Assembly: GCF_001677335.1 (NCBI RefSeq)
Contig: NZ_LZYB01000008.1
Coordinates: forward strand, 62,001 to 126,000
DNA from: Erythrobacter dokdonensis DSW-74
GTDB lineage: Bacteria > Pseudomonadota > Alphaproteobacteria > Sphingomonadales > Sphingomonadaceae
DNA length: 64,000 nt
Reading direction: 5' to 3'
Shown here: positions 7,756-54,723 of the stretch, one piece after another
How positions within the stretch are numbered: position 1 is the first letter of the stretch
Layout: each line of letters starts with the position of its first letter
The notes under the pieces: generated by a model
Database searches by the model: none
Told to the model about the DNA's origin: nothing
What the model saw: the letters and a program-made list of their open reading frames with translations, nothing else
Made by a program: the position numbers and the translations under genes

Positions 7756-8114
7756 TATTTTTTGACCTGCCTGCGCGGGTCTGCGCACGACTATTTGTGC
7801 AAATGCGACAAACTGACCGATCCTGCGCGTGAAACGTCGCCGGCCGCTTGTTTTTGCCGTGCGCCCCTGTAGTTTTGCGCCCGTCCGGGCCGGGGAGGTG
7901 ACGGACCAACGGAAAAGCCGGGCAAGAGCGAGGGTATCGCCATAGCCTCCGAATTGGCCGGCATTCTTTGTTTGCCGCAGATTGCGTCCAGAAAGCGCTG
8001 CTGCGGACGAACGGTCTGGGGGGAAACTTGTCGATCGCTCAGCCTATCTTGCGATCCGTGGGCAATGCCTTGTCGGACACGCGTGTCCCCGTCCCGCGTC
8101 AGCGGTCCAGCTCG
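7756..8114. other. Intergenic leader of the two-partner secretion operon
   Basis: About 360 bases between the lipoprotein stop and the ATG chosen for the secretion transporter. No RNA gene or convincing terminator is seen. The transporter frame is already open here. A TTG at 8028 is preceded by GGGGGG four bases upstream, so translation may begin inside this stretch. Confidence 0.5.
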
Positions 8115-9896: not shown

Positions 9897-9897
9897 A

Positions 9898-16137: not shown

Positions 16138-16138
16138 T

Positions 16139-19100
16139 ATGGCTCTTCGCTTCTTCGCCGCCGTTGGGGGTGCTGTGGGCGCGCTCGTTTTCGGACTGCT
16201 ACCAGCAGCTCCGGGAGCGGCGCAGGCGGTCGCAGTCGGGGAGCGGACCAGCCTGAGCCTGCGCGATACCTTCCCGATCGGTTCGAACGGATTGTGCGAG
16301 GCCCAGATCCTTGCGCCCGAACCGGGCGCAGCTCTCTTCGACCGGCGCTATTCGGTGATATGCCGCGATGCTGCCGCGCCGGTCGGGACACTTTGGGTGG
16401 TCCGCGGTCCGGCTCAGGAGATGTCCGCGGCCCGTTTCGCCGGAGAAGGAACGCGTTGCGAGGCCGCCGACCGCGGCGCCAGTGGCGCAACGGACTTGCC
16501 CGGCACCGAGCGGTTGGTGTGTGCCGCCAGTGGCAGCATGATCCGGACCGATCTGCTGCTCGCCCGCGAGGGACAGCGCACTTATGCCGCAAGCGGGCTT
16601 TCGGCCTATGCCACAGCGCTGGAACTGGGCCTTGCATCGCTGATGCAGGACAAGATCGTGGAAGGCACGGTGGAAATTCCGCTCACCAGCGCCACCGACG
16701 ATATCGCCTTCGCCCGTCAGCAGGCCGAGGCAATCGCGGCCGATCAGGCTCTGATTGAGGCCTATCGCCGCAGCAACGCCGGTAATTTCGCTGAAGCGGC
16801 GGAGTTTTTCGAAGTGTCCTCGGCGGCACTTGCCGGACCCGGCGCGGTCGAGGCGCGGCTTAATCAGGGGCTCCAGCAATCCAATCTGGGCAATTTCGCA
16901 GAGGCGCGGCGCCTGTTCGCCAGCAGCCGCAGCGAGAGCGCCGCGAGCCCGGTGCTCGCCCGGCTGCTGCGCAATTACGAGGCAATGGATGCACTCAACC
17001 AGCGCAAGCCCGAGGCGGCGCTGAGCCTGCTTGAAGCGCCTCTGGTTTCCGATTTCGGCGAACTTGAGAATCTCCGGGCGTTGCGGATCGGCCCGGCACT
17101 GGCGGGCCAGTTGGCAAGCGAGAATGATCGCGTCACAGGGGCCTATTCGCTGAGCCTTACACCGCTCGAGCGGGCACAGTTGCTCGACGGCCAGCATGCC
17201 TATCTGAAGGCCACGTCTCTGCGTCTGCTGGGCCGGACGGCGGAGTCGACCGCCCTCCTAGAACAAGCCGAAGCGACGCTTGCGAGCGTGCGTGACGGAC
17301 GCGTCGTCTCGATCGTCTGGCTGCGCGCACAGGTGCTCGGAGAACTGGCGGAAGTGGCAGAGCGTAGCGGGCGTCCCGGCGATGCGGAAAGCCTTCACCT
17401 GCGCGCGGTGGCTCTGCTCGATGCGACCTATCCGGATTCGCCTGCCTTTGACAGCGCCCGGGCACTGCTGGCCGGTTTCTATTCCCGCACCGGTCGCCGG
17501 GCGGAGGCACTGGGCCTCTATCGTGACATCATCACCGATGCCGAGGGCCGTCCGCTGCCTTCGCTGCGCGGATTGCTGGCGCCCTATTTCATCCTTGTTA
17601 TGGAAGATGGTGCAAGTGGCCCTGATGCGGCAGCAGAGCTGTTCGCCGCCAGCCAGTTGCTCCAGCGTCCCGGCCTTGCCCAGACCCAGGCGGTGCTTGC
17701 CCGCGAGCTTTCGGGCGGTAGCGACGAGGCGGCACAGCTGTTCCGCACCACCACCAACCTTTCTCGCGGGATCGAACAGTTGCGGCTGGCGCTGATCGAA
17801 TTGCGTTCGGCTGAACAATATGGCGTCAATCGCGCCGCTGCGATCGCGGAGCGCGAGCAGCGGCTCGCGCAATTGCAACAACAGCAGGCCGAGGTGTTGC
17901 AGAAGCTGGCAACCTATCCGCGCTACCGTGCGGTTAGCGGTGGCGGGCTGGCGCTTGCCGACCTGCAGGCGATCCTTCGCGAGGGTGAAGCCTATGTTAA
18001 GCTCGTGACCCTCGATCAGGAGGCCTATCTGCTCTATGTCACGGCAGATGATGCTCGGGCTTGGCGTGCTGATGCGACCCCGGCCGAGCTTGAAAAACTG
18101 GTCGGCCAGATCCGCGAGAGCATCGCTGTGGTCGAGGGTGGGCAGGTGCTGACCTATCCCTTCGAAATCGAGCGTGCACGGGAGCTCTATGTTCGTCTGT
18201 TCGCGCCGGTGGCCGATCGCCTGCCGCAGCTCGAGCATATCGTCTTCGAACCCGATGGCCCGCTGCTCAAGCTGCCCATCAACCTCCTGGTCACCGACGA
18301 TGCCAGTGTCGCAGCTTACAAGGCGCGGCTCGCGGGTCGCGACGCCGACGAATATGACTTTCGCGGCACAGCCTGGTTGGGGCGGTCGACGCAGATCAGT
18401 ACATCGGTCGGGGCCGCGGCGTTCCGTGACGTGCGCGCGGCGCGGCCCTCGGACGGCAAGCGCGCCTATCTGGGCCTTGGCGAGAATGAGCCGATCGGGG
18501 CCGGAAGCGGTGTCTCCGGACGCACGCGTTCGGCGCTTGAGGGTGCGGACAATTGTCAGTGGTCGCCCAATATCTGGGCCAATCCGATCAAGGCGGACGA
18601 GTTGCGCGAGGCAGCATCGCGCTTCGGCGCGGCGTCACGCGTGCTGACGCGGGAGGAGTTCACCGACAGCGCCATCCTCGGCCTCGACGATCTCGGCGAA
18701 TATCGCATCCTGCATTTTGCTACCCATGGCCTGGTGACCGCGCCGCAGCCGCAGTGCCCGCCTCGCCCGGCGCTTCTCACCAGCTTTGACAAGAATGAGG
18801 ACTCGGACGGCCTGCTGAGCTTTGCGGAGATCTTCGGCCTGAGGATCGATGCCGATCTGGTGATCCTGTCGGCCTGCGATACTGCCGGCAGCGCGACGGT
18901 GGGGGCCACCCGCGAGGCGGGCGTGACCAGCGGAGGCGAATTCGCGCTCGACGGTCTTGTGCGCGCTTTTGTCGGTGCGGGCGGACGCACGGTGCTGGCC
19001 AGTCACTGGCCGGTACCGGACGATTTCGACGCCACCGGCCGGCTTATTTCTGGCCTGTTCGCCGGTGATGGCCGTCCCACTGCCGGCGCGCTGCGCCAGT

Positions 19101-19198
19101 CGCAGCTGGCGCTGATGGATGATGCCGACACATCGCATCCGTTCTACTGGTCGGCTTTTGCTGTGGTGGGTGACGGCGCGATCCGCCTCGCCCGCTGA
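16139..19198 (+). CDS. Exported TPR/CHAT-domain caspase-like protein
   Basis: A 1,019-residue protein with a signal peptide (MALRFFAAVGGAVG to about AAQA). Its middle is helical and TPR-like (for example residues about 190-330, with NAGNFAEAAEFFEVSS and NLGNFAEARRLFASS), and a CHAT domain fills the C-terminal 300 residues. CHAT proteins are caspase/separase-fold cysteine peptidases. The catalytic pair is intact: His863 in HFATHG and Cys913 in LSACDTAG. The downstream GAGGRTVLASHWPVPD segment is also typical. A strong AGGAGGAG site sits just before the ATG at 16139. A signal peptide on a CHAT protein puts the peptidase in the periplasm, where its likely neighbour in action is the large secreted protein encoded immediately upstream. 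Processing of that protein is inference. Confidence 0.88.
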   Translation: MALRFFAAVGGAVGALVFGLLPAAPGAAQAVAVGERTSLSLRDTFPIGSNGLCEAQILAPEPGAALFDRRYSVICRDAAAPVGTLWVVRGPAQEMSAARFAGEGTRCEAADRGASGATDLPGTERLVCAASGSMIRTDLLLAREGQRTYAASGLSAYATALELGLASLMQDKIVEGTVEIPLTSATDDIAFARQQAEAIAADQALIEAYRRSNAGNFAEAAEFFEVSSAALAGPGAVEARLNQGLQQSNLGNFAEARRLFASSRSESAASPVLARLLRNYEAMDALNQRKPEAALSLLEAPLVSDFGELENLRALRIGPALAGQLASENDRVTGAYSLSLTPLERAQLLDGQHAYLKATSLRLLGRTAESTALLEQAEATLASVRDGRVVSIVWLRAQVLGELAEVAERSGRPGDAESLHLRAVALLDATYPDSPAFDSARALLAGFYSRTGRRAEALGLYRDIITDAEGRPLPSLRGLLAPYFILVMEDGASGPDAAAELFAASQLLQRPGLAQTQAVLARELSGGSDEAAQLFRTTTNLSRGIEQLRLALIELRSAEQYGVNRAAAIAEREQRLAQLQQQQAEVLQKLATYPRYRAVSGGGLALADLQAILREGEAYVKLVTLDQEAYLLYVTADDARAWRADATPAELEKLVGQIRESIAVVEGGQVLTYPFEIERARELYVRLFAPVADRLPQLEHIVFEPDGPLLKLPINLLVTDDASVAAYKARLAGRDADEYDFRGTAWLGRSTQISTSVGAAAFRDVRAARPSDGKRAYLGLGENEPIGAGSGVSGRTRSALEGADNCQWSPNIWANPIKADELREAASRFGAASRVLTREEFTDSAILGLDDLGEYRILHFATHGLVTAPQPQCPPRPALLTSFDKNEDSDGLLSFAEIFGLRIDADLVILSACDTAGSATVGATREAGVTSGGEFALDGLVRAFVGAGGRTVLASHWPVPDDFDATGRLISGLFAGDGRPTAGALRQSQLALMDDADTSHPFYWSAFAVVGDGAIRLAR

Positions 19199-19218
19199 CC
19201 GAGGCGGGGGCGCGGCTG

Positions 19219-21276
19219 ATGGGAGACCCGGGGCAGCGCGGCGTTCCGGCCTTCGGCTGGATCAGGCGCGGCTGGCGCAATGTCCGCGAGGCGGGCGGTG
19301 TGCAGCTGGTCGCGACTTTCGTGGTACTATGCGCTGCTCTTTTCATTGCCCGCTTCAGCTGGGTGCTGCCCGACGGCGAGGAGCCGACCCCGCTCACCAG
19401 CGAGGCCGAGCGCGCGCTCTATGATCTGCGCGCCTACTACGCCGCCGATCTGGTGGAGCAGGACAGCCGCATCGTGCTGGTGGTCTACACCGACCAGACC
19501 CTGATCAATGCGCGCAAGCGCTCCCCGCTCGATCGCGGGATGCTGGCTCGCACGCTGCGCAATCTCGACGGCATGGGGGCAAAGGCGATCGGCATCGATA
19601 TCCTGTTCGACCAGCCGCAGGACGAGGATGATGATCTGGTCGCTGCGTTAAGGGAGATGGAAACGCCGGTTGCCGTCGCTTACGCCAACCTTGCCACCAA
19701 CAAGGATGATATTGTCTACGAGCAGCAGCAATATCTCGAGGCTTTCCAGGCGCGGCTGGCAGACAGCAATGCGCGCCCCGCCAGCATCCGGCTCGACAAT
19801 ACTTTCGGCGCCACGCGGGTTTGGCCGGAAATCGTTCCCGATCTGCCGCCTTTGCTCGGGCGGGCCATGCTGGATGATGCAGGCGAGGCGGATGCAGCCT
19901 TCGACCGCTATGAGGGCGCGATCGATTATCGCCGGCCCAAGTTCGTCGATGCACCTCTGTTTGCCGCCTTGCAGATTGATCTCTTTGCCGACGCTGACCC
20001 GGAGGTGTTGCCCTTCCTCGCCGAACAGATCGCAGGGAAATATATCCTGATCGGCGGCGATATAGTCGATTATGACCGGGTCGAGACGACCTTCACCTCG
20101 ATCAACGGCGAGGTTCCTGCCGGGATTGCAGTCCATGCCGAGATCATCGCGCAGATGCTGGATAACCGCTACCTTGCGCCCATCCCGGTCTGGGTGCTGT
20201 GGGTGATGGCAATACTCGTCGTGCTGAGCGCCGCTTTAACCGCCCTGCTGGAATGGCCGGCGCGAAGGCTCGCGCCCTTCCTGCTGGTCCTGATCCTTGC
20301 CTTCATCGGCATTCCGGCGTTCCTGCAAGTGCGCAATGTCGATACCTACGGCCTGCCTGCGGTTGGCTGGCTGGTAGGATGGATCATGGCCTTCGCCGCC
20401 GTCACCGCTGCCGCCCGCGCATCCGGCGCGGTACAGCGCAATTTTGCCACCGGAGCGCTGGGCAAGTACATCCCGCGCGACATTGCCCAGGCGATTATCG
20501 ACAGGCCCGAGCTGCTCTCGCTGGGCGGGGAAAAGCGCGAAATCTTCGTGCTGTTCAGCGACCTCGAGGGCTTCACCAAGATGAGCCATGCGATTCCGCC
20601 GGAAATGGTCGCGAAACTGCTGAACCGCTATCTCGACATGCTCAGCCAGGTAGTGCTCGATCATGGCGGCGTGATCGATAAATTCGTCGGCGATGCGGTG
20701 GTGGCTTTCTGGGGCGCGCCGATTTCCCGGCCGGATGATGGGGAACGGGCTGCCCGGGCGGGATATGCACTGTGGCAGGCCGGCGAGTCGTTCCGGCGCG
20801 AGGTGGCGGCAATGGATGCGGACTTGCCAAGGATCGGCAAGACCCGTGTCGGGCTCCACTACGGCGAGGCGGTGATCGGCAATTTCGGCGGCGCGACCCG
20901 TATCCAGTATACTGCTCTGGGCGATTCGATGAACACCGCCGCGCGGTTGGAGGCGGCCAACAAGGCGCTCGATTCGAGCGTGATGGCGAGCCGGGAGTTT
21001 GCCGAGGCCTCGGGCCTTGGCTGGTGGCGCCAGATGGGGCGCGTGCGATTGCGCGGGCGGGCGCGGCCGGTCGATCTGTTTGAGCCCGCGCCGGATTTTC
21101 CGGACAACGACCGTGCGCTTTTGGCCGACGCTTGCGCTCTTGCGGCGACCGACACGGCCGCGGCCCTCGCGCTGGTGCAGGATGTCGCCGGTCGTCATCC
21201 GGATGATTCAGCGCTACGTAATCTGGTAAAGCGGATACAGGAACTGGACGAGGGAGGAACCTATGTTCTCGGCTAG
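19219..21276 (+). CDS. CHASE2-domain adenylyl cyclase, membrane-bound
   Basis: A 685-residue class III nucleotidyl cyclase. One membrane helix (about 30-52) is followed by a periplasmic CHASE2 sensor (about 60-315; YDLRAYYAADL, IVLVVYTDQTL, GAKAIGIDILFDQP), then three helices (about 320-342, 353-373, 380-400) and a cytoplasmic cyclase domain from 445. Both metal Asp residues are present (Asp448 in FSDLEGFT, Asp492 in KFVGDAVVAFWG). The purine-selecting Lys (DKFVGD) and Thr (QYTALGDS) favour ATP, and the NTAARLE segment supplies the Asn and Arg used in catalysis, so the enzyme should be active and make cAMP. It starts 20 bases after the CHAT stop and overlaps the next gene by 14. The CHASE2 domain faces the compartment where the CHAT and TpsA-like products are found or transit, so it may sense them. 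Confidence 0.92.
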   Translation: MGDPGQRGVPAFGWIRRGWRNVREAGGVQLVATFVVLCAALFIARFSWVLPDGEEPTPLTSEAERALYDLRAYYAADLVEQDSRIVLVVYTDQTLINARKRSPLDRGMLARTLRNLDGMGAKAIGIDILFDQPQDEDDDLVAALREMETPVAVAYANLATNKDDIVYEQQQYLEAFQARLADSNARPASIRLDNTFGATRVWPEIVPDLPPLLGRAMLDDAGEADAAFDRYEGAIDYRRPKFVDAPLFAALQIDLFADADPEVLPFLAEQIAGKYILIGGDIVDYDRVETTFTSINGEVPAGIAVHAEIIAQMLDNRYLAPIPVWVLWVMAILVVLSAALTALLEWPARRLAPFLLVLILAFIGIPAFLQVRNVDTYGLPAVGWLVGWIMAFAAVTAAARASGAVQRNFATGALGKYIPRDIAQAIIDRPELLSLGGEKREIFVLFSDLEGFTKMSHAIPPEMVAKLLNRYLDMLSQVVLDHGGVIDKFVGDAVVAFWGAPISRPDDGERAARAGYALWQAGESFRREVAAMDADLPRIGKTRVGLHYGEAVIGNFGGATRIQYTALGDSMNTAARLEAANKALDSSVMASREFAEASGLGWWRQMGRVRLRGRARPVDLFEPAPDFPDNDRALLADACALAATDTAAALALVQDVAGRHPDDSALRNLVKRIQELDEGGTYVLG

Positions 21277-22021
21277 AATGAAACGGACCTTTGCGGCACT
21301 GGCTCTGGGCGGCGCGGCGATGGCGCTGCCGGTGGCGGCGATGGCGGGCGTCGTGGTAAAATCAACCGGGCCTTCTTCAGGCAAGTACCCTGTGGGCACC
21401 AAGCTTGATGACACCGCCACCATCACTCTCAAGACGGGTGACGTGGTGACTGTGCTGACATCGGACGGCACGCGGGTGATCAAGGGCGCGGGCACCTTCC
21501 GCGTTGGCGACCGGCCACAGGTGGCATCGGACCGCTTTGCGTCGCTGACCCGAAAGCGCGCCGCCACGCGTGTGCGCACCGGGGCGGTGCGCGCTCCCGA
21601 CGACGAGGCGGTCACCAATCCGAGCCTGTGGTATGTCGACATCACCCGTTCAGGCACCATCTGCCTTTACGATTTCGCCACGGTCCGGTTGTGGCGTCCC
21701 GGCACTGAAGGCACCGCGACATACAGCATCACCGCCCATGGCGAGAGCCACAGCGAGACCGGCGCACGGGCTGAAGTCACATTTGACGATACGGTCACGG
21801 TCGCCGCGCTTGATCCTGTACGCCTGCCTGTGACCGAGGGCGGCCATTACATGATTATCGCACCCGACGGATCGACCAGCGCGGAACTGAATTTCGTGCT
21901 GCTTGCCGGTGATTATGAGGCCCCCGACGCCTTGGCCGAGGCGCTCATTTCCAAGGGATGCTCGGTCCAGCTCGAGGCGCTCGCCAACACGCTTGAGGCA
22001 GGCGCCGAAACCGCCGGCTGA
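21263..22021 (+). CDS. Secreted protein of unknown function, last gene of the CHAT/cyclase operon
   Basis: A 252-residue exported protein with a signal peptide ending in AAMA (about residue 28). The first third reads like a small beta domain (KTGDVVTVLTSDGTRVIKGA), with a weak likeness to FecR-type ligand-sensing domains. The rest is a second beta-rich domain with two separated cysteines (SGTICLYDF and SKGCSVQLE) that could form a disulphide in the periplasm. The ATG at 21263 lies inside the end of the cyclase gene behind GGGAGGAA, so its translation is coupled to the cyclase. FecR-like, CHASE2, CHAT and ShlB genes are seen together in other bacteria, so it is a plausible partner of the sensor. 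I do not recognise a firm family. Confidence 0.75.
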   Translation: MFSARMKRTFAALALGGAAMALPVAAMAGVVVKSTGPSSGKYPVGTKLDDTATITLKTGDVVTVLTSDGTRVIKGAGTFRVGDRPQVASDRFASLTRKRAATRVRTGAVRAPDDEAVTNPSLWYVDITRSGTICLYDFATVRLWRPGTEGTATYSITAHGESHSETGARAEVTFDDTVTVAALDPVRLPVTEGGHYMIIAPDGSTSAELNFVLLAGDYEAPDALAEALISKGCSVQLEALANTLEAGAETAG

Positions 22022-22252
22022 CCTCTGGAGGGCATTGCCCCGTTGTTGCTGGCGGCCACTGCGATCTGAAAAGCGCGGATTGCCTGTTGCATCGTGATGG
22101 CAAGCTTGGGAGAAAGGCAGGGGATCTGGTTTTGAGGGAGTCGGCAGCGGGAAAGATTTCCTGGCGCGGCTCTACAAACTCTGACGCAACTGGCCTGCTA
22201 GTCTCGACAGACACGGCAGACTGATGGCATGGTGCATCTCGGGGGGGATGAG

Positions 22253-23638
22253 ATGACGAGAGTTCTGGCGAAACTGGTCGCTGGCCTCGCAAGCAGGCCG
22301 CAGATCCTGCGCGTGTTCGCAGTGGCGGGTCTTGCTGCGCTCTATCCGGCGGCTAGCGCGATCGGCAATCCGACTTTTGAAGGTGTCGCCAGCTGTGCCG
22401 GCTCCACCTGCCACGGGCGCGCGGAAGGGAACGGCGCCGTCGTGCGGCAGGACGAGATTGCCACCTGGCAGGAGCCGTCATCGCCTTCCGGCGCTCACAG
22501 CCGCGCCTATGCCGTTCTCGCTGGCAGGCGAGGACAGCAGATTGCTGCCAGCCTCGGGCTCGGCAATGCCACGCAGGCCCCCGCATGCCTTGGCTGCCAT
22601 TCCACCAATGCCCCCGCAGCGCGGCGCGGCGCCAAGTTCACTGTCACCGACGGGGTCGGATGCGAGAGCTGTCACGGCCCCTCGGGCGGAAGCTGGCTGG
22701 CCGAGCATTATGCGCTGCCCGCGACCCATGCATCCAATGTCGCGGCGGGGCTGACCCCGCTTGATAATCCCAAGGCGCGCGCGAATGTCTGCCTTGATTG
22801 CCATTACGGATCGGACAAGCCGGGGCAGTTCGTCACCCATGCCATGATGGCGGCGGGCCATCCGCGCGTTTCCTTCGAGCTCGACCTGTTCAGCGCACTG
22901 CAGCAGCATCACAATCTCGATGCCGATTACACTGCGAGAAAGGGAGCGCCCAATTCGGTGCGCTTCTGGGCGGTCGGACAGGCCGAAGCGGTGCGCCGCG
23001 CAACCAGCCTCTATGCCCAGCCGAAATTCGCCTACGAGGGCGCTTTCCCGCAGTTCTATTTCTATGACTGCCATTCGTGCCACCGCACGATTACCGACGG
23101 GCCGAGCCGCAAGCTGACCTTCGAGACCAATCCCGCAAGGCCGATCCCCTTTGGCAACCCACCCTTTAACGACGAGAATATCATCATGCTCTCGGCGGTG
23201 GCCGGCGCGCTGGTGCCAGGCGAGGCTGAGGCATTCCGCACCGCTTCGCGCGACTTCCACAAGGCAATGGGTGCAGGCCCCGCCGAGGCGCGCGCGGCAG
23301 CGCAGACGCTGGCATCGCGCGCCGGGCGGCTGTCGGATGCGCTGTCGGGGCGGGCCTATGCCAATGCCGATGCCTTCCGGGTGATAGCCACGATCGCAGG
23401 GGAGGCTACCGCTCCGCGCTTCACCGATTACGCCGGGTCGGTTCAGGCGGTGATGGCCGTGGACACGCTGCTCAATGCGCTGGTGCGCGAGGGCAGGGTG
23501 ACGCGCGGTGCCGCGGCAGGCATCCGCGCCGATATCGCCCGCGCCTACAAGGCGGTCGAGGAGCCCAATGCCTATCGTCCGGCCGATTTCCGTAGCGCCT
23601 TGAAAGCCGCGGCGAACGCGATCGGCAGGCTGGCCTGA
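22253..23638 (+). CDS. Pentaheme c-type cytochrome, exported
   Basis: A 461-residue periplasmic multihaem cytochrome. After an N-terminal export sequence there are five haem attachment sites. The first is the unusual CAGSTCH (four residues between the cysteines); then come CLGCH, CESCH, CLDCH and CHSCH. The first half resembles the cytochrome c554-type fold. Several free His residues (for example in GHPRVSFELD and the QQHHN segment) could be distal ligands. The C-terminal 160 residues are helical and haem-free. The ATG at 22253 follows a GGGGGGG stretch and is preferred to an in-frame ATG at 22229. It heads an operon with 1-2 base gaps to the lipoprotein, barrel and decaheme genes. It is likely an electron-transfer subunit; its substrate is unknown. 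Confidence 0.88.
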   Translation: MTRVLAKLVAGLASRPQILRVFAVAGLAALYPAASAIGNPTFEGVASCAGSTCHGRAEGNGAVVRQDEIATWQEPSSPSGAHSRAYAVLAGRRGQQIAASLGLGNATQAPACLGCHSTNAPAARRGAKFTVTDGVGCESCHGPSGGSWLAEHYALPATHASNVAAGLTPLDNPKARANVCLDCHYGSDKPGQFVTHAMMAAGHPRVSFELDLFSALQQHHNLDADYTARKGAPNSVRFWAVGQAEAVRRATSLYAQPKFAYEGAFPQFYFYDCHSCHRTITDGPSRKLTFETNPARPIPFGNPPFNDENIIMLSAVAGALVPGEAEAFRTASRDFHKAMGAGPAEARAAAQTLASRAGRLSDALSGRAYANADAFRVIATIAGEATAPRFTDYAGSVQAVMAVDTLLNALVREGRVTRGAAAGIRADIARAYKAVEEPNAYRPADFRSALKAAANAIGRLA

Positions 23639-23640
23639 CG

Positions 23641-25590: not shown

Positions 25591-25591
25591 G

Positions 25592-31566: not shown

Positions 31567-31570
31567 CGCG

Positions 31571-32458
31571 CTATTCGCGCTCGGCGAACATGCCTTCGAT
31601 CATCGGTTGCAGCCCGGCGTGGAAGCGGGCCAGCACCTGCCAGTCACCGACACGCTCGTAATGCGATACCAGCCGCTCCCCGTCCCAGCGGTGGAGCGCA
31701 TAGGTCGGCGGCTCGGTGGTGATGAGCTCGCGATCATCCGGCACGTCCTTGTCGATCGGCGTCAGGTCCATCGCCACCAGCGGCGCGACCGAGGGCGTCA
31801 CGCCGAGCGGGATGCCGGCGAACTGCGTCACGATCTGGCGGTGAAGGTGCCCGCAATGGATCGCCTGCACCTGTGATTGCCCGGTCAGCACCTCGCGCAG
31901 GCGCTCCATCCATGGCTCGCCCGGCGCGGGGTCCATCCAGTCAATCCCCGCGACCACCGGGGGATGGTGCATGAAGATCAGCGTCGGCGTATCGGGCGCT
32001 TCGGCCAGCCGGTCGGCCAGCCAGAGCGAACGCGTTTCGCAAAAGGCGCCGCCGTGGCGACCGTCCTCCAGTGTGTCGAGACAGATGACCCGCAATCCCA
32101 GAGGCGCTTCGATGACGTAATGCAGGAAGCCGCCTTCGGCGGGCACGACCTGCGGGAACGCGCCCAGAAGTCCCTCGCGGCTGTCGTGATTGCCGACCAA
32201 CGGGACAATCGGGAAGGGAACATCGCGCAGCAGATCGGCAGTCTTGGCGAAGCTTTCCGCATCCCCATGATCGGTTATGTCACCCGAAAGCACCAGCATG
32301 TCAGGGTGATTGGGGCCGGCCAGCAGCCGGGCGAGGGTCGCGCGGAAGCGGGTGAGGTTCAGTTCCTCGGGCCTTTCGTCTGGCGCGAAGCCGACGTGAA
32401 TATCCGTCATTTGCGCGATCAGCGCAGCGTGACCGGTTGAGGGAGCGACCCGATCCAT
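31571..32458 (-). CDS. CpdA-like metallophosphoesterase (predicted 3',5'-cAMP phosphodiesterase)
   Basis: A 295-residue cytoplasmic calcineurin-like phosphoesterase. All metal-binding motifs are present in order: DIHVG near the N-terminus (D-x-H), GDITDHGD, GNHDSR, HHPP and GHLHRQ. The family includes CpdA, which hydrolyses cAMP; other members cleave other phosphodiesters, so the substrate is inferred. It is the last gene of the leftward operon with the FHA-decaheme, b-type membrane and CNB-flavoprotein genes. Its ATG at 32458 comes two bases after the FHA-decaheme TAG. Because the first gene of that operon carries two cyclic-nucleotide-binding domains and a cyclase lies about 10 kb away, a cAMP substrate is the simplest reading. 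It could lower the ligand level of its own operon partner. Confidence 0.85.
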   Translation of the reverse strand: MDRVAPSTGHAALIAQMTDIHVGFAPDERPEELNLTRFRATLARLLAGPNHPDMLVLSGDITDHGDAESFAKTADLLRDVPFPIVPLVGNHDSREGLLGAFPQVVPAEGGFLHYVIEAPLGLRVICLDTLEDGRHGGAFCETRSLWLADRLAEAPDTPTLIFMHHPPVVAGIDWMDPAPGEPWMERLREVLTGQSQVQAIHCGHLHRQIVTQFAGIPLGVTPSVAPLVAMDLTPIDKDVPDDRELITTEPPTYALHRWDGERLVSHYERVGDWQVLARFHAGLQPMIEGMFAERE

Positions 32459-32460
32459 CG

Positions 32461-34260
32461 CTAGGGCTTAGCCCGCGAAAGTTTTGCCGCAACCTTCGTT
32501 TCGCCAGCTACGGGCAGGGGGCGGTAGTGCGGATCGTCCTTTGCAGCCTCGGGTGACCACTGGCCGGCAGGGACGTGATAGGCATGGCACATGGCGCAGG
32601 ACGAGGGGACGATTTTCTTCGTCTTCACCGCACTCGCACCCAAGTGGCAATCGCGGCAGCTCTTGAGGTCCGGGATCAAGAGGTCGGTGGCTGCCTTGGA
32701 GGTGTCCGCAGCGTGGCAATCGGTGCATTCTTCCTTCTTGTGCGCCTCGTGGCTGAAGAAGCCCGTCGTCAGGAAGCGATCGGGCAGGTTGACGGCCATC
32801 AGGTCGCGCCGGCCGTCCCTGGTGGCGGGCAGGTGGCATTCGGTGCAGATGCCGCCCGGCGCAAGCGCGTTGGAGAGGTCGATAAAGCTGCGCACCGGAC
32901 GACCGAAATCGGCGGCATAGGCCCCGCCGCGCGCGAACTGGCCGGGACGGGTGCGGTTCGAAGCAGGCGTGGCGCGCGGGCCGGAACCGATCCTTGCAAG
33001 GTCTTCTGCCAGATCCTTCACATCGCCGTGGCGCAGCTTGCTGAACCCGCCCGCTGCGGTGCGCCCCGAAACGAGGCTGTGGCAGCTCTCGCAGGCGTCT
33101 TCCATCTTCACTTCCGTGAACGAGATTTTGTCAGGCGTGAGGCTGTGGCAGTCCTTGCATTCGAGCGGCGAGCCATAATCAGGCAGGCTCACCGCCATGC
33201 GCGCCGCGCCGCCTTTCGCATCCATATGCACATCATGCGGGAACTTGAGGCCGCTTTTCTCCACCGGCGTGCTGCCGGGCGCAGCGCGCACCGGCTTTGC
33301 TGCACCGAAGCTGGCGTAATAGGCCGGGCGGAATTGCGGGTGCGCCTTGCCGAAATCATGCGCATCGGCAAGCCTCGTGTCGGTCAGGCGTGTGTCGAGA
33401 TCGCTATGGCAATCCGAACAGAAAGCCTCGCTCGCCGGTTGCTGGCGCACTTCGCCTTCGTGCTCGGTGTGGCACGAAACACAGCCCAGCGGGCCTTCCT
33501 TGCCGAGGCTTTGCGCGATCCGCCATTGCAGCGCATCGCCGGTGGAGAGCGACGGCATCCCTGCGGCGAGGCGGCCCGCCCTGGCGTGATCGCCGGTGCC
33601 TTCGTGGCAGCTGATGCAGGTTTCATCCTGCACGCTTTCGAATGCGGCGACATGGCAGCTTTCGCAATTATCCTCGAGACTGTGGTGCCTGAGCGACAGA
33701 TCGCCAGTCGACCAGGCCGCATCCATCACCACCTGCCCGGGTGTTTCGCCCTTTGGATCGTTTTTGACCGGCGTGCGCAGCAGGTGGCTGGCCACGGGAA
33801 CCATCAGCAGAAGCAGCATGATCGCGCCCGCGAAGATCCAGCTCACGGAACGCTTTGACGGCAGCTTTGATGCAAGCGAGAAGCCGCGCAGCACGTCGCC
33901 CTTGCCCTCATCCGCCACCACCTGGCGGATGGTGACCGAGATGGTCCCGTCGCTCTCGCGCGCGACTGCCAGACGCGCCGCCCCGAGCGCGATTTCGCCG
34001 CCGGTTCGCGGCTCGATCGTCCCCTCGGTGACAGTGCGTCCGTCGAGCCCGAATCCCAGCGTCCCTACGGCCGAGACCGCCAGTGTGCCGTCGGGCCGGG
34101 TGTCGATGCGCACATGGCGCTGCTCGACTGCAAGATCGGGCAGGTGGATATCATTTTCCGCCGCGCGGCCGATGGTCAGGCCGGCCTGCTCCACCACCCG
34201 GTCGCGGATGATTTCGCGTCCGGCTGCAGTGAAATCGATGGTGCGGATCAGGAACGCCAT
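32461..34260 (-). CDS. FHA-domain / transmembrane / decaheme cytochrome fusion
   Basis: A 599-residue protein with an unusual order. Residues about 20-95 form an FHA domain (GLTIGRAAENDIHLPD), one membrane helix lies at 141-160 (VSWIFAGAIMLLLLMVPVAS), and ten CXXCH sites run from 199 to 559: CESCH, CISCH, CVSCH, CSDCH, CKDCH, CESCH, CTECH, CTDCH, CRDCH, CAMCH. There is no signal peptide, so the FHA domain should stay in the cytoplasm and the haems in the periplasm. FHA domains bind phosphothreonine, but the usual S-R-x-H here reads VEQRH. The Ser that contacts phosphate is Glu, so binding may be altered or lost. Ten bases separate it from the b-type membrane gene upstream, two from the phosphodiesterase downstream. 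It probably takes electrons from the membrane subunit. Confidence 0.88.
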   Translation of the reverse strand: MAFLIRTIDFTAAGREIIRDRVVEQAGLTIGRAAENDIHLPDLAVEQRHVRIDTRPDGTLAVSAVGTLGFGLDGRTVTEGTIEPRTGGEIALGAARLAVARESDGTISVTIRQVVADEGKGDVLRGFSLASKLPSKRSVSWIFAGAIMLLLLMVPVASHLLRTPVKNDPKGETPGQVVMDAAWSTGDLSLRHHSLEDNCESCHVAAFESVQDETCISCHEGTGDHARAGRLAAGMPSLSTGDALQWRIAQSLGKEGPLGCVSCHTEHEGEVRQQPASEAFCSDCHSDLDTRLTDTRLADAHDFGKAHPQFRPAYYASFGAAKPVRAAPGSTPVEKSGLKFPHDVHMDAKGGAARMAVSLPDYGSPLECKDCHSLTPDKISFTEVKMEDACESCHSLVSGRTAAGGFSKLRHGDVKDLAEDLARIGSGPRATPASNRTRPGQFARGGAYAADFGRPVRSFIDLSNALAPGGICTECHLPATRDGRRDLMAVNLPDRFLTTGFFSHEAHKKEECTDCHAADTSKAATDLLIPDLKSCRDCHLGASAVKTKKIVPSSCAMCHAYHVPAGQWSPEAAKDDPHYRPLPVAGETKVAAKLSRAKP

Positions 34261-34270
34261 TGCCTGCGCC

Positions 34271-35140
34271 TTACCAGTAGAAGAACACGCTGATCACGTG
34301 GGCGACAAGCGCGGCGATCAAGGCGATGGTGAGCGGAATGTGGATGAACAGCCAGATCTCGAGCAGTGCGCGGATACGCAGCTGCTGCCGGATCTGGGCG
34401 AGCTGTTCGCGGCGCTTCTCCAGCAGGGCGACGACCCGTTGTTCGGCTTCGGATTGCCGGCCCATGCCGCCGAGCGCGCACGCCGTGGCGCAGCCGGGAT
34501 AGCGTCCGGTCAGCCGGGCCAGCGCGCCGCCGGAAAACACGTCCTGCCCCAGTGCATTGATCACCAGGTCGGCCTCGGTGCGCTCGAGCGGCTGGGCCGC
34601 GCTTTCCAGCTGGCGGTCGATTGCGGTCAACGCCTCGATCATCTGCGCGCGGGTCATCTCCTTGCGATTGGCGCTGAGGCTCGCGGGCAGGGTGGCGTAG
34701 GCGATCACGCCATAAATGCCGGTAATGATCACCAGCAGCATCAGCACATAGGCTAGCGTGTGGACGTTCCAGCCGATCTGGAAGCCGGTGTGGAGCGTGC
34801 CGATCACGATCAGCGAAAGGCCGAGATAGACATGGGCCGAAGTCCAGGCCTTGAGGCTCCATTGTCCCGTGGTGATCCGGCGTTTCCTGACGCCCAGCAG
34901 CGAGAGCCAGACGATCAGCCCAAAACCGATGGTTCCAAGCGTGTAGCCGTACCACGAGCCGCCATTGGGGCGTGGCTGCTGGTCGATCATCAGGTAGCCG
35001 AGAATTGCAGTGCCGCACAGGGCAAGGGCGACCCAGAGCCAGCGGAAGCCGCGGTGCTTCAGAAAGCTGACGTGGTCGGAATCCCGCCGCTTCTCGTCCT
35101 GCGTGAACCGCCCCGTGCCCCCTGCTTTCGTCGCCATCAT
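34271..35140 (-). CDS. Five-helix membrane protein with bis-His diheme b-type pattern
   Basis: A 289-residue integral membrane protein with helices at about 31-51, 63-84, 100-120, 126-148 and 260-287. His103 and His117 in helix three and His267 and His281 in helix five are each spaced by 14 residues, the arrangement that holds two stacked b haems in cytochrome b-type proteins. The soluble segment 155-255 is helical and charged, with two cysteines (GCATACALG). It could therefore pass electrons across the membrane between the cytoplasmic Fe-S module encoded upstream and the periplasmic decaheme encoded downstream. Two consecutive ATGs occur at the start. The first (35140), behind GAGG, is used here, and it overlaps the flavoprotein TGA. 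I do not know a named family. Confidence 0.8.
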   Translation of the reverse strand: MMATKAGGTGRFTQDEKRRDSDHVSFLKHRGFRWLWVALALCGTAILGYLMIDQQPRPNGGSWYGYTLGTIGFGLIVWLSLLGVRKRRITTGQWSLKAWTSAHVYLGLSLIVIGTLHTGFQIGWNVHTLAYVLMLLVIITGIYGVIAYATLPASLSANRKEMTRAQMIEALTAIDRQLESAAQPLERTEADLVINALGQDVFSGGALARLTGRYPGCATACALGGMGRQSEAEQRVVALLEKRREQLAQIRQQLRIRALLEIWLFIHIPLTIALIAALVAHVISVFFYW

Positions 35141-37581
35141 TCGGCGTCCTCGGTGAGCTTGGTGAAGGTCAGGAACTTGTCCGGGCTGACACGGATTGCT
35201 GCACCCGTCGGGCAGGCGCGCACGCAGGCCGGACCGCCGTCGATCCCCGCGCACATGTCGCACTTGATCGCCAGCTTGGCCTTGGCCACCCCTTCTTCCT
35301 CGGCCTTCTTCTTGCGCCAGCTATAGGGCGCCTCGCCCGGTCCGGGACCCGAGCCGAACAGCATCCATTGCAGCAGGCTCGGCTTTTTCGGGGGCTTCGC
35401 ATCCATGCGGATCACGCCATAGGGGCAGTTCCTCTGGCAATTGCCGCAGCCGATGCAGGTTTCATCGATGAACACCTCGCCGTCCGGCCCGCGCTTGATC
35501 GCGTTGGGCGGGCAGTCGGCCATGCAATGCGGGTGCTCGCAGTGGCGGCATGACGTCGGCACGTGCAGGTGGGCATAGGTGCGTCCGGCCTCGCGGTCGA
35601 GGCGCGAAAGGCCATCATGGCTGTCGGCACAGGCCTTCTCGCAATTGTCGCAGCCGATACACAGCTTTTCGTCGATCAGCAGCACGTCGGTCGCCTCGCC
35701 GATGCCGTTGTCGACGAGGAAGGCGGCAGTCTGCGAATAGAGATCGACCGCGCCGGAGAATTCGTCCTTGCGGCTTTCGATGAAGGCATTGGTGGCGCGG
35801 CGCCCGGCCATGTCCTTCATGGCGCGCTCGCGCAGGGCAGGGTTCGCGTCGAGCAGGTCGAGAAAGCCCTGGCCGGGGAGGCGGATGACCTCCGACTTGA
35901 TCGCCGCCTTGACCGTCGCCGTGCGGGTCGAGCCGTCGATCACGGCCATCTCGCCGAAATAGGAGCCGGCGGGCAGGTAGGACAGGAACACCGGACGATC
36001 GCCGATCTGCTTCTCCACGATCATCGACCCGCGGCGGACGATGAACACGTCCTTGTCATCCGCGCCTTCGGTGACGATCACTTGGCCCGCGCGCGCCTGC
36101 ACCACTTCGGCGCTTGCGACGAGCGGGGCGACATCCTCGCGGGTGAGGCCGGAGCCGAACATCTGCAGCAATTGCCGCTCGATCGAGATGGCATTGACGG
36201 CTCGCGCCGCGCCGGGCGACGTTGCAAGAAGTTTCAGCGCCGCGGTGCGCGACAGTTCCAGAGCGACCACCGGTTCGGCAGCACGCACTGTCGCGCCGCG
36301 GCGGCGTCCCGAAATCAGGCCCACTTCGCCAAAGATCGAGCCCTGTTCGATAGGCACCGTTACCGAGGGATCGGCGGGATTGACCTCGACCGCGACCGAG
36401 CCCTCGGCAATCGCGAACATCGATGAACCCGGCTCGTTGCGGCGGAAGATAACCTCGCCCGGCTCATAGGCATGGCAGGTCGAATCCAGCAGCAATTCGC
36501 GCAGCTGCAGGGTCGAGAGGTCATTAAGGATCAGGACGTTCCTGCCGAACACTTCCAGCCATTCCTCGACGCTGCGATTGCCGGGGAGCCGGGCGAACTT
36601 CTCGGCCAGAATCGGCTCGTCGGCGGGCTTGAGGTCGTGGTTCCCGTTCAGGAACTCGATCACGTCATAGCCCTGGTTCATGCAGTGCTTGATCAGCGGA
36701 TAGCCCGCCAGCGCGCCGATCACGTGGATGCCGGGCGTGGTGGTTTCGAACACCGGCGACAATTTCGGAAAGGCGCCGGGTTCGGGGCTGGAGAATTCGA
36801 TCCCCATTGCCTCGACAAATCCCCGCGGCGGCTGCGAGCCGGTGCGCGCGATAATCCGGTTGCAGCGGATCGCCTCCTGTCCGTCGCGGGTGTCGAGCAG
36901 CAGTTCGTTCTCGCGCACTTCGGCAGGCGTGGTTTCGCGCCGCACAATTACCCTGCCTTCACGCTCGGCTTCTTCGAGCAGCGCGACATTGGCTGCCTTG
37001 GCGCGGGCGAAATCGGCCGAGCGGTTGAGGATCGTCACCACGTTGCGCTGGGCCGGGTCGGCGGCAAGGCCCAGCGCGTTTTCGATGCCTGCATCGCCTG
37101 ATCCGACCACGGTGATGTGTTCATCATAATACTCGCCGGGATCGTCGAGCTGGTACTGGATGATCGGCGAATCTGCACCGGGACAGCGTAGCTTGTTGGG
37201 GTTGCCCTGCGTGCCGATCGCGAGGACCACCGCCTCGGCCTTGATCACCTCGCCATTGCGCAAGTGGATGCTAAACGCGCCCTTCTTGCCCTCGATCTTC
37301 GCGACCTCGGCATGGAGCATCACGTTGACCTTGTGGCCCGCGATCTGTTCGTCCCAGATGCCGAGGATCGTTTCGCGCTTGCCCGCCTCGAAATCGATGT
37401 CGGAACGCAGCACCAGATTGCTGGGCGTCGCCATGACATGCTTGCCCTTCTGGTATTTGAAGATCGTGTCGGAAAGGTGGTCGGTCTTTTCCAGCAGGAC
37501 GTGGCTCATGCCGAGTGCAGCGGCACGCGCGGCAGCGCTCAGGCCGGCTGGACCCGATCCGACGATGGCGACCTTGAACAT
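35137..37581 (-). CDS. FAD/NAD(P) oxidoreductase fused to two cyclic-nucleotide-binding domains and a four-cluster ferredoxin module
   Basis: An 814-residue cytoplasmic fusion. Residues 1-330 are a thioredoxin-reductase-like flavoprotein with FAD (VAIVGSGPAGLSAA) and NAD(P) (TVVGSGDAGIENALG) binding motifs but no redox CxxC. Two CNB domains follow (about 350-465 and 475-590). The second has a canonical phosphate-binding cassette, FGEMAVIDGSTRTATV; the first has FGEVGLISGRRRGATV. Residues 640-795 carry 16 cysteines in four [4Fe-4S] patterns (CIGCDNCEKAC, CRHCEHPHCMADC, CIGCGNCQRNC, and CDMC with a later CVRAC), as in DmsB/NrfC-type subunits. The enzyme should oxidise NAD(P)H or a similar donor and pass electrons on, gated by cAMP or cGMP. 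ATG 37581 opens the FAD motif; TTG 37590 is closer to GGAGG and could be the real start. It is the first gene of the operon. Confidence 0.9.
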   Translation of the reverse strand: MFKVAIVGSGPAGLSAAARAAALGMSHVLLEKTDHLSDTIFKYQKGKHVMATPSNLVLRSDIDFEAGKRETILGIWDEQIAGHKVNVMLHAEVAKIEGKKGAFSIHLRNGEVIKAEAVVLAIGTQGNPNKLRCPGADSPIIQYQLDDPGEYYDEHITVVGSGDAGIENALGLAADPAQRNVVTILNRSADFARAKAANVALLEEAEREGRVIVRRETTPAEVRENELLLDTRDGQEAIRCNRIIARTGSQPPRGFVEAMGIEFSSPEPGAFPKLSPVFETTTPGIHVIGALAGYPLIKHCMNQGYDVIEFLNGNHDLKPADEPILAEKFARLPGNRSVEEWLEVFGRNVLILNDLSTLQLRELLLDSTCHAYEPGEVIFRRNEPGSSMFAIAEGSVAVEVNPADPSVTVPIEQGSIFGEVGLISGRRRGATVRAAEPVVALELSRTAALKLLATSPGAARAVNAISIERQLLQMFGSGLTREDVAPLVASAEVVQARAGQVIVTEGADDKDVFIVRRGSMIVEKQIGDRPVFLSYLPAGSYFGEMAVIDGSTRTATVKAAIKSEVIRLPGQGFLDLLDANPALRERAMKDMAGRRATNAFIESRKDEFSGAVDLYSQTAAFLVDNGIGEATDVLLIDEKLCIGCDNCEKACADSHDGLSRLDREAGRTYAHLHVPTSCRHCEHPHCMADCPPNAIKRGPDGEVFIDETCIGCGNCQRNCPYGVIRMDAKPPKKPSLLQWMLFGSGPGPGEAPYSWRKKKAEEEGVAKAKLAIKCDMCAGIDGGPACVRACPTGAAIRVSPDKFLTFTKLTEDAE

Positions 37582-37702
37582 TCCGGCCAACTATCCTCCC
37601 CCCTTCGCGGATAGATCGAACCCTCGAAGACACCATACCCAAATGTGCCTTCGATGCCAGAGCGAATTGCCCCGATTTGCCGCCGGTGCTAGCTCCCTGA
37701 CC

Positions 37703-38653
37703 ATGGATACGAAGGAAAAGGCACCCGCCGAAGGGGCATCGAAGGCGGGTTGGATCCTGCTGGGCGCAGCACTGGTGCTGGCGGCAGGCTCGATCGGCTA
37801 CAATGTCTATGGCGGCGCAGGTGGCGGTGATGCGCCCGCGTCGGTCGATGGGGCCGCGCCCTCGATCGAGGATCTGCGCAAGGCCGCCGAGGCGGCATCG
37901 GACGATGCCGGGCCGTGGGCCGATCTTGCATTTGCCCACTTCAGGCAGGGTCAGTTTGCCGAGGCCGCGACCGCTTATGCCCGCGCTGCGGAGATCGCAC
38001 CCGAAGATGCTGTGCTGCATTCCGCGCTGGGCGAGGCACTGGTCATGGCGAGCAGCCGCGATCCTCTGCCTCCGCAGGCGCTCGCGGCCTTCGAGAAGGC
38101 GCTGGCGCTCGACCCGAGCGATCCGCGCGCGCGCTACTTCATGGGCGTCAAGAAGGATATCGACAAGGATCACGAGGGCGCGATTGCCGCCTGGCTCGAT
38201 CTGCTCGCCGATACGCCGCCGGGTGCGCCGTGGGAGGCGGACCTCGTGCGCACCATCGAACAGGTCGGCAAGATAAATGGAATCGACGTCGCCCCGCGCA
38301 TCGCCAAGGTGCAGGAAGGCCGCCAGCCGCCTCTGCTCGCGCCCGGCCCGGGCAGTCTTGCCGCCGATGCCGGCGCGCCGGATGTGCGCGGCCCGAGCGC
38401 GGCGGAAGTTGCGGCAGCAGGCGCGATGACCCCCAGCCAGCAGCGCGAAATGGCCGAAGGGATGGTCGCGCAGCTCGAAGGCCGGTTGCAGGAGAATCCG
38501 GGCAATCTCGATGGCTGGGTGATGCTGATGCGCAGCCGCATGACACTGGGCGAACCGGCCAAGGCCAAGGCCGCACTCGAGGCGGCGATCAAGGCCAATC
38601 CGGCGGAGGCGGCGGAACTCAGGCGACAGGCGCAGGCGCTGGGGATCGGCTAG
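37703..38653 (+). CDS. TPR protein resembling CcmI/CycH cytochrome c maturation factor
   Basis: A 316-residue membrane-anchored protein: an N-terminal cytoplasmic tail, one helix at about 17-37 (WILLGAALVLAAGSIGYNVY), then a periplasmic TPR region. The repeats include WADLAFAHFRQGQFAEAATA, HSALGEALVMAS and AFEKALALDPSDPRARYFMG. The segment WLDLLADTPPGAPWEADL is characteristic of the C-terminal half of CcmI/CycH, the chaperone that holds apocytochrome c during haem attachment. The two-helix N-terminal domain of full CcmI is missing. It diverges from the flavoprotein operon with a 121-base shared promoter region, so a role in maturing the 25 neighbouring c haems is reasonable. No other ccm gene is in the window. 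The ATG at 37703 is the first one that opens the membrane helix. Confidence 0.75.
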   Translation: MDTKEKAPAEGASKAGWILLGAALVLAAGSIGYNVYGGAGGGDAPASVDGAAPSIEDLRKAAEAASDDAGPWADLAFAHFRQGQFAEAATAYARAAEIAPEDAVLHSALGEALVMASSRDPLPPQALAAFEKALALDPSDPRARYFMGVKKDIDKDHEGAIAAWLDLLADTPPGAPWEADLVRTIEQVGKINGIDVAPRIAKVQEGRQPPLLAPGPGSLAADAGAPDVRGPSAAEVAAAGAMTPSQQREMAEGMVAQLEGRLQENPGNLDGWVMLMRSRMTLGEPAKAKAALEAAIKANPAEAAELRRQAQALGIG

Positions 38654-40184: not shown

Positions 40185-40196
40185 GAGCGCGCGTCC

Positions 40197-46826: not shown

Positions 46827-46984
46827 GCCTCGTCCTCCCCAAAGCCGTCATCGTCGATCAGGATACGGGTCGCGGCCCCGTCCATATCATCATACTGCCC
46901 GTTCTTCATCGACCAGAAGAAGGCCGCAAGGCCTAGCAGACCCATGCCCAGCGCAATCGGGATCAGGAAGGCAAGGCCTGTCAT
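46823..46984 (-). CDS. ccoS: cbb3-type cytochrome oxidase assembly protein CcoS
   Basis: A 53-residue single-helix membrane protein: MTGLAFLIPIALGMGLLGLA leads into a helix and the hallmark FFWSMKNGQYDD, followed by an acidic tail ending in DDDGFGEDEA. CcoS is needed for mature haem and copper insertion into the cbb3 oxidase. It overlaps ccoI by four bases (ATGA), and the next small gene starts on its stop codon. Confidence 0.95.
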   Translation of the reverse strand: MTGLAFLIPIALGMGLLGLAAFFWSMKNGQYDDMDGAATRILIDDDGFGEDEA

Positions 46985-52955: not shown

Positions 52956-52980
52956 TGTTCGCGTTCCTTCTCGCCGGCGC

Positions 52981-54648: not shown

Positions 54649-54702
54649 AATATTCTTCCCTTCCGTCGGCCGCTTCTTAGCGTGCCCCCGTGATCCCTGT
54701 TG

Positions 54703-54716
54703 TTGATCTAAATCAA
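54703..54716. promoter_or_regulatory. FNR/FixK box upstream of ccoN
   Basis: TTGATCTAAATCAA is a perfect TTGAT-N4-ATCAA site between ccoN and the regulator gene. On the minus strand a TAAGAA hexamer follows 23 bases on, suitable for a class II activated promoter of ccoN. Confidence 0.88.
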
Positions 54717-54723
54717 AAATGTG

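Follow-up and report, generated by a model that had tools for sequence, protein, structure and literature searches.

We analysed a 64,000-nucleotide stretch of the 3.0 Mb genome of Erythrobacter dokdonensis DSW-74 (contig NZ_LZYB01000008.1, positions 62,001 to 126,000; henceforth the window), for which an initial annotation, made by eye from the nucleotide letters and their open reading frames, had proposed a multihaem electron-transfer system controlled by cyclic AMP (cAMP). Coding-bias gene calls and domain scans revealed two adjacent gene groups: a redox block of nine genes (22229-38653), which is the main subject here, and a sensory and secretion group to its left (7968-22021), whose CHASE2-adenylyl cyclase adjoins the block. 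Much of the analysis centres on one protein of the block, FLAV, which joins a flavin adenine dinucleotide (FAD)/NAD(P)H reductase domain to two cyclic-nucleotide-binding (CNB) domains and an iron-sulphur (Fe-S) domain. The genes of the block, preceded by the adjoining cyclase, are as follows.

19219-21276, + strand: CHASE2-adenylyl cyclase (class III, Lys at the substrate site; Pfam CHASE2 and Guanylate_cyc above cut-off)
22229-23638, + strand: pentahaem cytochrome of the c554 family (Pfam Cytochrome_C554, 47.2 bits; four CXXCH sites and one CX4CH site)
23641-25590, + strand: lipoprotein (by eye) with HbpS-like domains (Pfam HbpS-like, 76.4 bits, three stretches)
25589-27448, + strand: putative outer-membrane barrel protein of 619 residues (from its sequence appearance; coordinates corrected here)
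27445-31566, + strand: LVIVD-repeat decahaem cytochrome with a signal-like start (ten CXXCH sites; Pfam LVIVD, 50 bits; N-terminal hydrophobic stretch)
31571-32458, - strand: class III phosphodiesterase-type metallophosphoesterase, MPE (Pfam Metallophos; metal ligands)
32461-34260, - strand: FHA10, with an FHA-like domain, one transmembrane helix and a decahaem domain (ten CXXCH sites; hydrophobic helix at residues 139-157)
34271-35140, - strand: cytochrome b561-like membrane protein with two His-x13-His pairs (Pfam Ni_hydr_CYTB, 29.8 bits, just below the cut-off of 30.1)
35137-37581, - strand: FLAV, with a YpdA-type FAD/NAD(P)H reductase domain, two CNB domains and four [4Fe-4S] clusters (Pfam Pyr_redox, CNB and Fer4 matches)
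37703-38653, + strand: TPR protein related to CcmH/CycH (CcmI-like), divergent from FLAV, with 37703 as its probable start (Pfam TPR_CcmH_CycH, 60.4 bits, scanned within 37160-38650)

FLAV, the proposed entry enzyme, is built in the order YpdA/Bdr-type FAD/NAD(P)H domain, tandem CNB domains (with profile matches that include the regulatory chains of PKG and PKA) and a HycB-type domain whose 16 cysteines serve four [4Fe-4S] clusters, which bears out its initial description as a flavoprotein with two CNB domains and four Fe-S clusters. Across 97 FLAV sequences (that of the window, 16 others of alignment A2 and those of 80 named loci), all 16 Fe-S cysteines are invariant, as are G418/E419/R428 and G543/E544/R553 of the two CNB phosphate cassettes, and the Glu/Arg pair holds in FLAVs down to 44% identity; each CNB domain therefore keeps its predicted ligand-binding residue pair. 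A Thr directly follows the Arg of the second CNB domain in 71/97 FLAVs, which, by the residue rule for this position, would allow either cAMP or cyclic GMP as the ligand. Some FLAVs (L067, L068, L069, L078 and L079) share a 28-residue insertion in the FAD domain (A1 columns 128-155); they occur in the window's genus and in two other genera. In the CNB and Fe-S parts each of these proteins remains similar to its respective relatives, and the insertion is possibly a patch of gene exchange.

We considered whether FLAV could be a thioredoxin reductase and ruled this out because CXXC is missing from residues 1-600 of the window protein, the part ahead of the Fe-S domain; its cysteines 133, 240, 300 and 369 vary among homologues. 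Fusions of CNB and thioredoxin reductase, such as ATII-TrxR from the Red Sea (PMC6544261), resemble FLAV in joining a CNB domain to a class II pyridine-nucleotide/FAD reductase domain. FLAV differs from them in that two CNB domains come behind its reductase part, that it has a ferredoxin domain with four clusters and lacks CXXC, and that cytochrome b and multihaem genes are its neighbours.

The proposed membrane and haem partners of FLAV are also conserved in their cofactor residues. In the cytochrome b, which fits the definition of a di-haem cytochrome b561-like protein, His 103, 117, 267 and 281 lie in two membrane helices and are kept in 111/112 sequences (with one gap), so that the bis-His membrane protein of the initial annotation is retained with corrected gene limits (34271-35140, position 34248 being the end of a different frame). 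The haem-motif counts likewise agree with the 5, 10 and 10 sites first reported for the three multihaem proteins. In FHA10, the first Cys of all ten haem sites is kept in 108-109 of 109 sequences (the remainder being gaps), and the helix at residues 139-157 separates the haem sites from the FHA-like domain, which scores 20.1 bits, just below the Pfam cut-off of 20.7. FHA domains that read phosphothreonine use Gly-Arg and Ser-x-x-His as binding residues. Arg32 is present in 109/109 FHA10 sequences and His49 in 107/109, with the Ser position occupied by Glu in 70 and by Ser in 3 of the 109; because the usual Ser before the His is mostly missing, this domain probably does not read phosphothreonine.

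Further out, the LVIVD protein had no match among solved structures in a sequence search (E 0.01). The putative barrel, which had been called an outer-membrane barrel outright, proved to be an open gene whose position between the HbpS-type and LVIVD genes is conserved across loci; its identity as a barrel comes from the look of its sequence, with zero Pfam or NCBIfam matches in sequence-level scans. The haem-binding lipoprotein domains and the CcmI-like factor were both recovered by Pfam, with the scores listed above.

On the same strand as FLAV, MPE had been described as a CpdA-like phosphodiesterase. The metallophosphoesterase part of this description stands: its binuclear metal-ligand set is complete, with D19, H21, D60, N90, H91, H164 and H165 present in 93/93 sequences and H204 and H206 in 92/93 (one gap), and its best solved relatives are Rv0805 and 2dxl (named Phosphohydrolase), which we take to be GpdQ. 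The likeness to CpdA in particular needs correcting, the protein being closer to SpdA (NCBIfam 126.1 bits, cut-off 400) than to CpdA (73 bits, cut-off 225), with both scores under the curated cut-off. In the reading proposed below, MPE would act on a cyclic nucleotide of the 3',5' type. A second metallophosphoesterase gene (L196:17047-17790) is present on the Sphingobium herbicidovorans plasmid pMSHV, upstream of the TPR gene and beside ShlB.

To describe how far these genes travel together, we used a set of 61 genomes (the window's own, 36 of the same genus and 24 from other families of the order). A full or near-full FLAV was found in 23 of the 61, all within the genus (23/37), and FHA10 in the identical 23. 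One further genome, G032, has a 44-codon FLAV scrap at a contig end, reading in frame into ABC-transporter-like sequence and accompanied by no FHA10 or cyclase match; this is probably an assembly or binning mix, and we counted the genome as lacking FLAV. The neighbourhoods of 20 of the 22 other carriers were covered (G013 and G015 were left out), and in all 20 FHA10 comes after FLAV with the cytochrome b place between them. MPE directly follows FHA10 in 19/20, and the LVIVD, barrel, HbpS-type and c554-type genes come next in 18/18 neighbourhoods with long enough contigs.

Outside the genus, FLAV was present in 15/398 genomes of a phylum sample, and FHA10 follows it in 13 of 14 loci (13 genomes) at FLAV identities down to 44%, with only the second FLAV locus of G061 departing from this; LVIVD-group genes lie near FLAV in 7/14 of these loci (G410, G186, G360, G318, G433, G425 and, in part, G213). 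Among 80 named loci (the best 80 of 548 relatives listed, with flanks of at most 10 kb and several contigs that end early), we found the TPR gene in 76, cytochrome b in 78, FHA10 in 77, MPE in 71, LVIVD in 51 and the barrel in 48. The conjugative plasmid pMSHV carries the complete block.

We then asked how FLAV relates to class III cyclases, detected with Pfam PF00211. Within the genus, a cyclase is present in 22/23 FLAV genomes and in 0/14 without FLAV, the exception (G023) being 72% complete. Among 249 genomes of the family, the counts are 92/93 with FLAV vs 22/156 without (Fisher p = 1.6e-45, uncorrected for kinship), and the sole FLAV genome without a cyclase (G683) is 73% complete. The contrast is also found inside genera: in 18 genera with both kinds of genome, a cyclase occurs in 35/36 FLAV genomes vs 3/32 without FLAV (one of these three, G614, is 70% complete), a difference reached in 0 of 200,000 within-genus shuffles; 16 of the genera are concordant, 2 tied and none reversed. 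As a control accessory trait we took the photosynthetic reaction centre, which is flat within the mixed genera (8/36 vs 8/32). Among the distant FLAV genomes tested 7/7 have a cyclase, a count to be read without a base rate for the phylum sample. The initial annotation had named wide occurrence of the redox genes without a cyclase as the outcome that would speak against it; for FLAV, the gene checked, the genus, family and distant-genome counts led us to reject such an occurrence.

The window's own cyclase is intact, as first described: 19219-21276 is an open gene in which the motifs FSDLEGF, DKFVGD and QYTALGDSMNTAAR are present, presumably supplying the two metal Asp, the substrate Lys, the Asn and the Arg, so that the class III catalytic residue set is complete (Pfam 48.8 bits, cut-off 21.9). 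It is not a fixed part of the redox block. A 73-88% identical match lies within about 21 kb downstream of FLAV in 10/20 genus neighbourhoods; in the others it lies at a distance, has been replaced or falls beyond the part covered. Specifically, the orthologue is 200-221 kb distant in G020 and G021 and on a different contig in G024, and a relative only 28-30% identical occupies its position in G002 and G016. At the scale of the family, a cyclase lies within 40 kb of FLAV in at least 32/93 genomes, vs about 3.4 expected under random placement (a lower bound, based on 141 of 199 cyclase matches). In six named loci (from Sphingomonas, Sphingorhabdus, Novosphingobium and a Sphingomonadales) a cyclase like that of the window is 0.8-5.1 kb from FLAV, and in G061 a different class III cyclase is 1.7 kb away. 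When every cyclase was listed, which was so for 46 FLAV genomes, 25 had one within 40 kb and 21 did not. Co-inheritance as a single island is therefore insufficient as a complete explanation, because these 21 carriers hold a cyclase, none of them within 40 kb.

These distances bear on an explanation by neighbourhood alone, in which the cyclase and the genes around it form a separate sensory or adhesin system co-inherited with the redox block as an island, FLAV has CNB domains that play a structural role or take another ligand, and the co-occurrence stems from shared ancestry or habitat. The genes concerned, together with the extra neighbour that recurs most often on the other side of the block, are as follows.

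7968-9896, + strand: ShlB/FhaC-type outer-membrane transporter for two-partner secretion (Pfam ShlB, 49.3 bits, cut-off 22.7)
9898-16137, + strand: large TpsA-like protein of 2079 residues (role suggested by the adjacent ShlB gene and sequence appearance; zero Pfam or NCBIfam family matches)
16139-19198, + strand: TPR-CHAT protein with a signal-like start (Pfam CHAT, 166.5 bits)
21263-22021, + strand: FecR-like periplasmic protein (by eye only; zero matches in Pfam and NCBIfam scans)
43783-45138, - strand: glutamate dehydrogenase (Pfam ELFV_dehydrog)

The FecR-like gene travels with the cyclase across loci, and a detached cyclase cluster retains its own neighbours (CHAT, cyclase and FecR-like in G020 and G021; cyclase and FecR-like in G024), as a separate system would. 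Sensory operons with FecR and CHASE2 are known, there with a CHASE2 kinase and, in the portion of the paper available, no mention of a cytochrome (PMC5192318). An island would also be consistent with the complete block riding a conjugative plasmid and with the enrichment of CHASE2 domains of any kind in FLAV genomes. Against such a system speak the 21 of 46 carriers just described, the strong contrast within genera where the photosynthesis control is flat, the invariance of Glu and Arg in both CNB domains down to 44% identity, and the position of the phosphodiesterase-type gene, which sits with FLAV and not with the sensory cluster. We consider this explanation unlikely, though worth keeping in view.

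The reading that we favour, and hold with moderate confidence, is that the block is a transmembrane electron-transfer unit linking the NAD(P)H pool to periplasmic and outer-envelope multihaem proteins, with its cytoplasmic entry enzyme under cyclic-nucleotide control. Electrons would pass from NAD(P)H to the FAD of FLAV, through its four [4Fe-4S] clusters to the two b haems and on to the ten haems of FHA10, which would be anchored by its one helix with the haems in the periplasm. From there they would reach the LVIVD-decahaem and c554-type pentahaem proteins, acting with the lipoprotein and the barrel; the outward direction and the final acceptor are part of the same inference. The ligand would be made by a class III cyclase (in many cases the CHASE2-adenylyl cyclase close by), bound by the tandem CNB domains, whose position between the reductase and Fe-S domains could let them switch electron flow, and removed by the phosphodiesterase-type enzyme. 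Carriers of the module very rarely lack a cyclic-nucleotide-producing enzyme, which suggests direct action of the signal molecule on the electron chain. The cAMP-controlled redox system first proposed for the window is thus upheld in part, in its conserved redox module, the ligand pair of the CNB domains, the MPE gene in 19/20 neighbourhoods and the cyclase co-occurrence, and amended in that the window's cyclase is not fixed to it.

Several observations weigh against this reading. Treating G032 as a carrier would shift the genus counts to 22/24 vs 0/13. Family-wide, the photosynthesis control also differs (24/93 vs 21/156, p = 0.017), which means that uncorrected tests across the family run somewhat high. 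CHASE2 domains in general are commoner in FLAV genomes (92/93 vs 79/156; within mixed genera 35/36 vs 20/32, with 366 of 200,000 shuffles as high), and part of the raw association between FLAV and cyclases may be due to kinship or to a wider repertoire. The substrate residue of the 13 cyclases in the neighbour set is Lys in 7, Glu in 1 and unread in 5; because it is Lys in the window and Glu in the linked cyclase of G061, the nucleotide made by linked cyclases may not be the same everywhere. An MPE-type gene was undetected near the block in seven genomes (one of the genus, one alphaproteobacterium of another family and five of other classes; G022, G433, G425, G213, G212, G094 and G061), and SpdA, the nearest named relative of MPE, is annotated as a 2',3'-cyclic nucleotide phosphodiesterase. 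Finally, the LVIVD group was unseen in the examined stretches of the other 7/14 distant loci, and on the Sphingopyxis indica plasmid pMC4 the c554/HbpS/barrel/LVIVD group is accompanied by a TPR gene and gdhA, with zero FLAV matches. Because the LVIVD group occurs without FLAV on pMC4, and FLAV loci occur without the LVIVD group nearby, there are two sub-modules, FLAV-cytb-FHA10 and c554-HbpS-barrel-LVIVD, which are often but not always together.

Kinship as the only source of the FLAV-cyclase link was nevertheless rejected on the within-genus contrast and the control that is flat there, though it differs slightly family-wide. CHASE2 itself was rejected as the partner on its weaker link (92/93 vs 79/156).

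On which way electrons run, and to what, the wider neighbourhood offers no more than a lead. Among the extra neighbours, glutamate dehydrogenase recurs most often, being present in 32-33 of 99 loci (which include three cyclase loci without FLAV and the pMC4 plasmid). In the window the gene is 6 kb away from FLAV; in G433 (L100) it sits between the c554-type gene and the HbpS-type gene, and at L197:11073-12428 it is annotated as NADP-specific. The enzyme may supply or use NADPH, or trap ammonium from the outer part. As a possible NADPH user beside the block, it would suit a reversed flow, in which a periplasmic or external donor feeds the multihaem proteins and NAD(P)+ is reduced at FLAV (lithotrophy or reverse electron flow), the cyclic nucleotide still switching the enzyme on. 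Every redox centre of the block is in principle a reversible carrier, and photosynthetic reaction-centre genes are present in the window's genome. Photosynthesis genes are, however, unassociated with FLAV within genera (the flat control above), and the domain scans made revealed no donor-oxidising enzyme within the block. On balance we regard reversed flow as improbable.

An ammonium product would fit the idea that the outer part serves specifically to reduce a soluble compound of the periplasm or outer membrane (e.g., an oxyanion or a nitrogen oxide) rather than to conduct electrons to solid or distant acceptors, an idea compatible with cyclic-nucleotide control of the entry enzyme. A loose parallel here would be the Ext cluster of Geobacter (extHIJKLMNOPQS), for which PMC5877670 describes an outer-membrane porin-like protein, cytochromes with 5, 10 and 12 haems, a b-type cytochrome, and a selenite/tellurite phenotype of the porin mutant. 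Its parts list is similar to that of the block (porin-like protein, multihaem and b-type cytochromes), and the window's LVIVD protein has a partial ExtM match. That match scores 53.8 bits against an equivalog cut-off of 800, with a best stretch of 51 residues; the three multihaem proteins (LVIVD, FHA10 and c554-type) have zero CXXCK haem sites, and a Rieske protein was not found among the scanned block genes. Ext has a Rieske/b-type inner-membrane pair, and an NAD(P)H flavoprotein, a CNB domain or a phosphodiesterase goes unmentioned in the accessible text of PMC5877670; Ext (see also PMC11976967) shares single features only with the block. That the outer part is dedicated to such a soluble compound is in our view a substantial possibility, at somewhat less than even chances.

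The favoured reading, of a transmembrane unit gated at its entry enzyme, also invites comparison with the MtrCAB and Pcc conduits. The likeness lies in decahaem proteins and a putative barrel within one cluster, and FHA10 has a weak match to Mtrc-MtrF_II-IV_dom (24.5 bits, under the cut-off of 30). Such a conduit is defined by an MtrB/PioB-type barrel together with an MtrA-type decahaem; in the sequence scans the window's barrel has no family match, and the block differs in that its input would be a pyridine-nucleotide flavoprotein, not a quinol oxidase. By function, the nearest known idea appears to be an NAD(P)H oxidoreductase that spans the membrane and is gated by a second messenger, such as NOX5, the eukaryotic calcium-gated NADPH oxidase, which has EF-hands and membrane b haems and no Fe-S clusters or c-type haems. 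The two would be alike in placing a second-messenger sensor on an NADPH/FAD enzyme that feeds membrane b haems, with no sequence relation expected; NOX5 has calcium EF-hands where FLAV has CNB domains, and only the block has Fe-S and c-type haems. In the open-licence literature searched, we found no bacterial example of such an oxidoreductase, no description of direct, non-transcriptional control of an electron-transfer chain by a cyclic nucleotide, and no description of the present combination of genes.

With 92/93 FLAV genomes of the family, the cyclase link is unusually strong. It suggests a role for CHASE2 cyclases as well as a multihaem system, seemingly unstudied, in common bacteria (e.g., Erythrobacter, Novosphingobium, Sphingobium and Sphingomonas). 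A bolder proposal would be that cAMP switches a respiratory-type electron export of bacteria directly at the NAD(P)H-oxidising enzyme, that this chain is the main reason why Sphingomonadaceae keep class III cyclases, and that the CHASE2 cyclase, the CHAT protein and the secreted protein are its outside sensor and surface partner; we put this forward tentatively, as rather doubtful in its full form.

The CHAT/TPR protein, the FecR-like protein and the two-partner-secretion pair around the cyclase (7968-22021) were absent from the initial annotation. In several genera, genes for two-partner secretion (ShlB, a TpsA-like protein or both) are found close to the redox block, to one side or the other and in some cases together with CHAT (L122, L131, L136, L141, L142, L160, L181, L183, L185, L188 and L196, in addition to the window at 7968-22021), and their recurrence suggests a secreted partner of the block. 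On the other side, a DUF1501/DUF1800 gene pair (38730-42038) separates the block from glutamate dehydrogenase; it was rejected as part of the module because the other loci examined gave zero matches at the thresholds applied.

Control of the block through an FNR or CRP box was also rejected: the block has zero perfect FNR-type palindromes, matches to CRP-type sites are at chance level, and the perfect FNR-type palindromes of the window lie only at 54703 and 55502, beside the genes of a cbb3 oxidase. These oxidase genes (COX1, FixO and FixP) belong to a stretch beside the block (46981-55515) that also holds FixG, a heavy-metal ATPase and a radical-SAM protein (HemN-like by eye).

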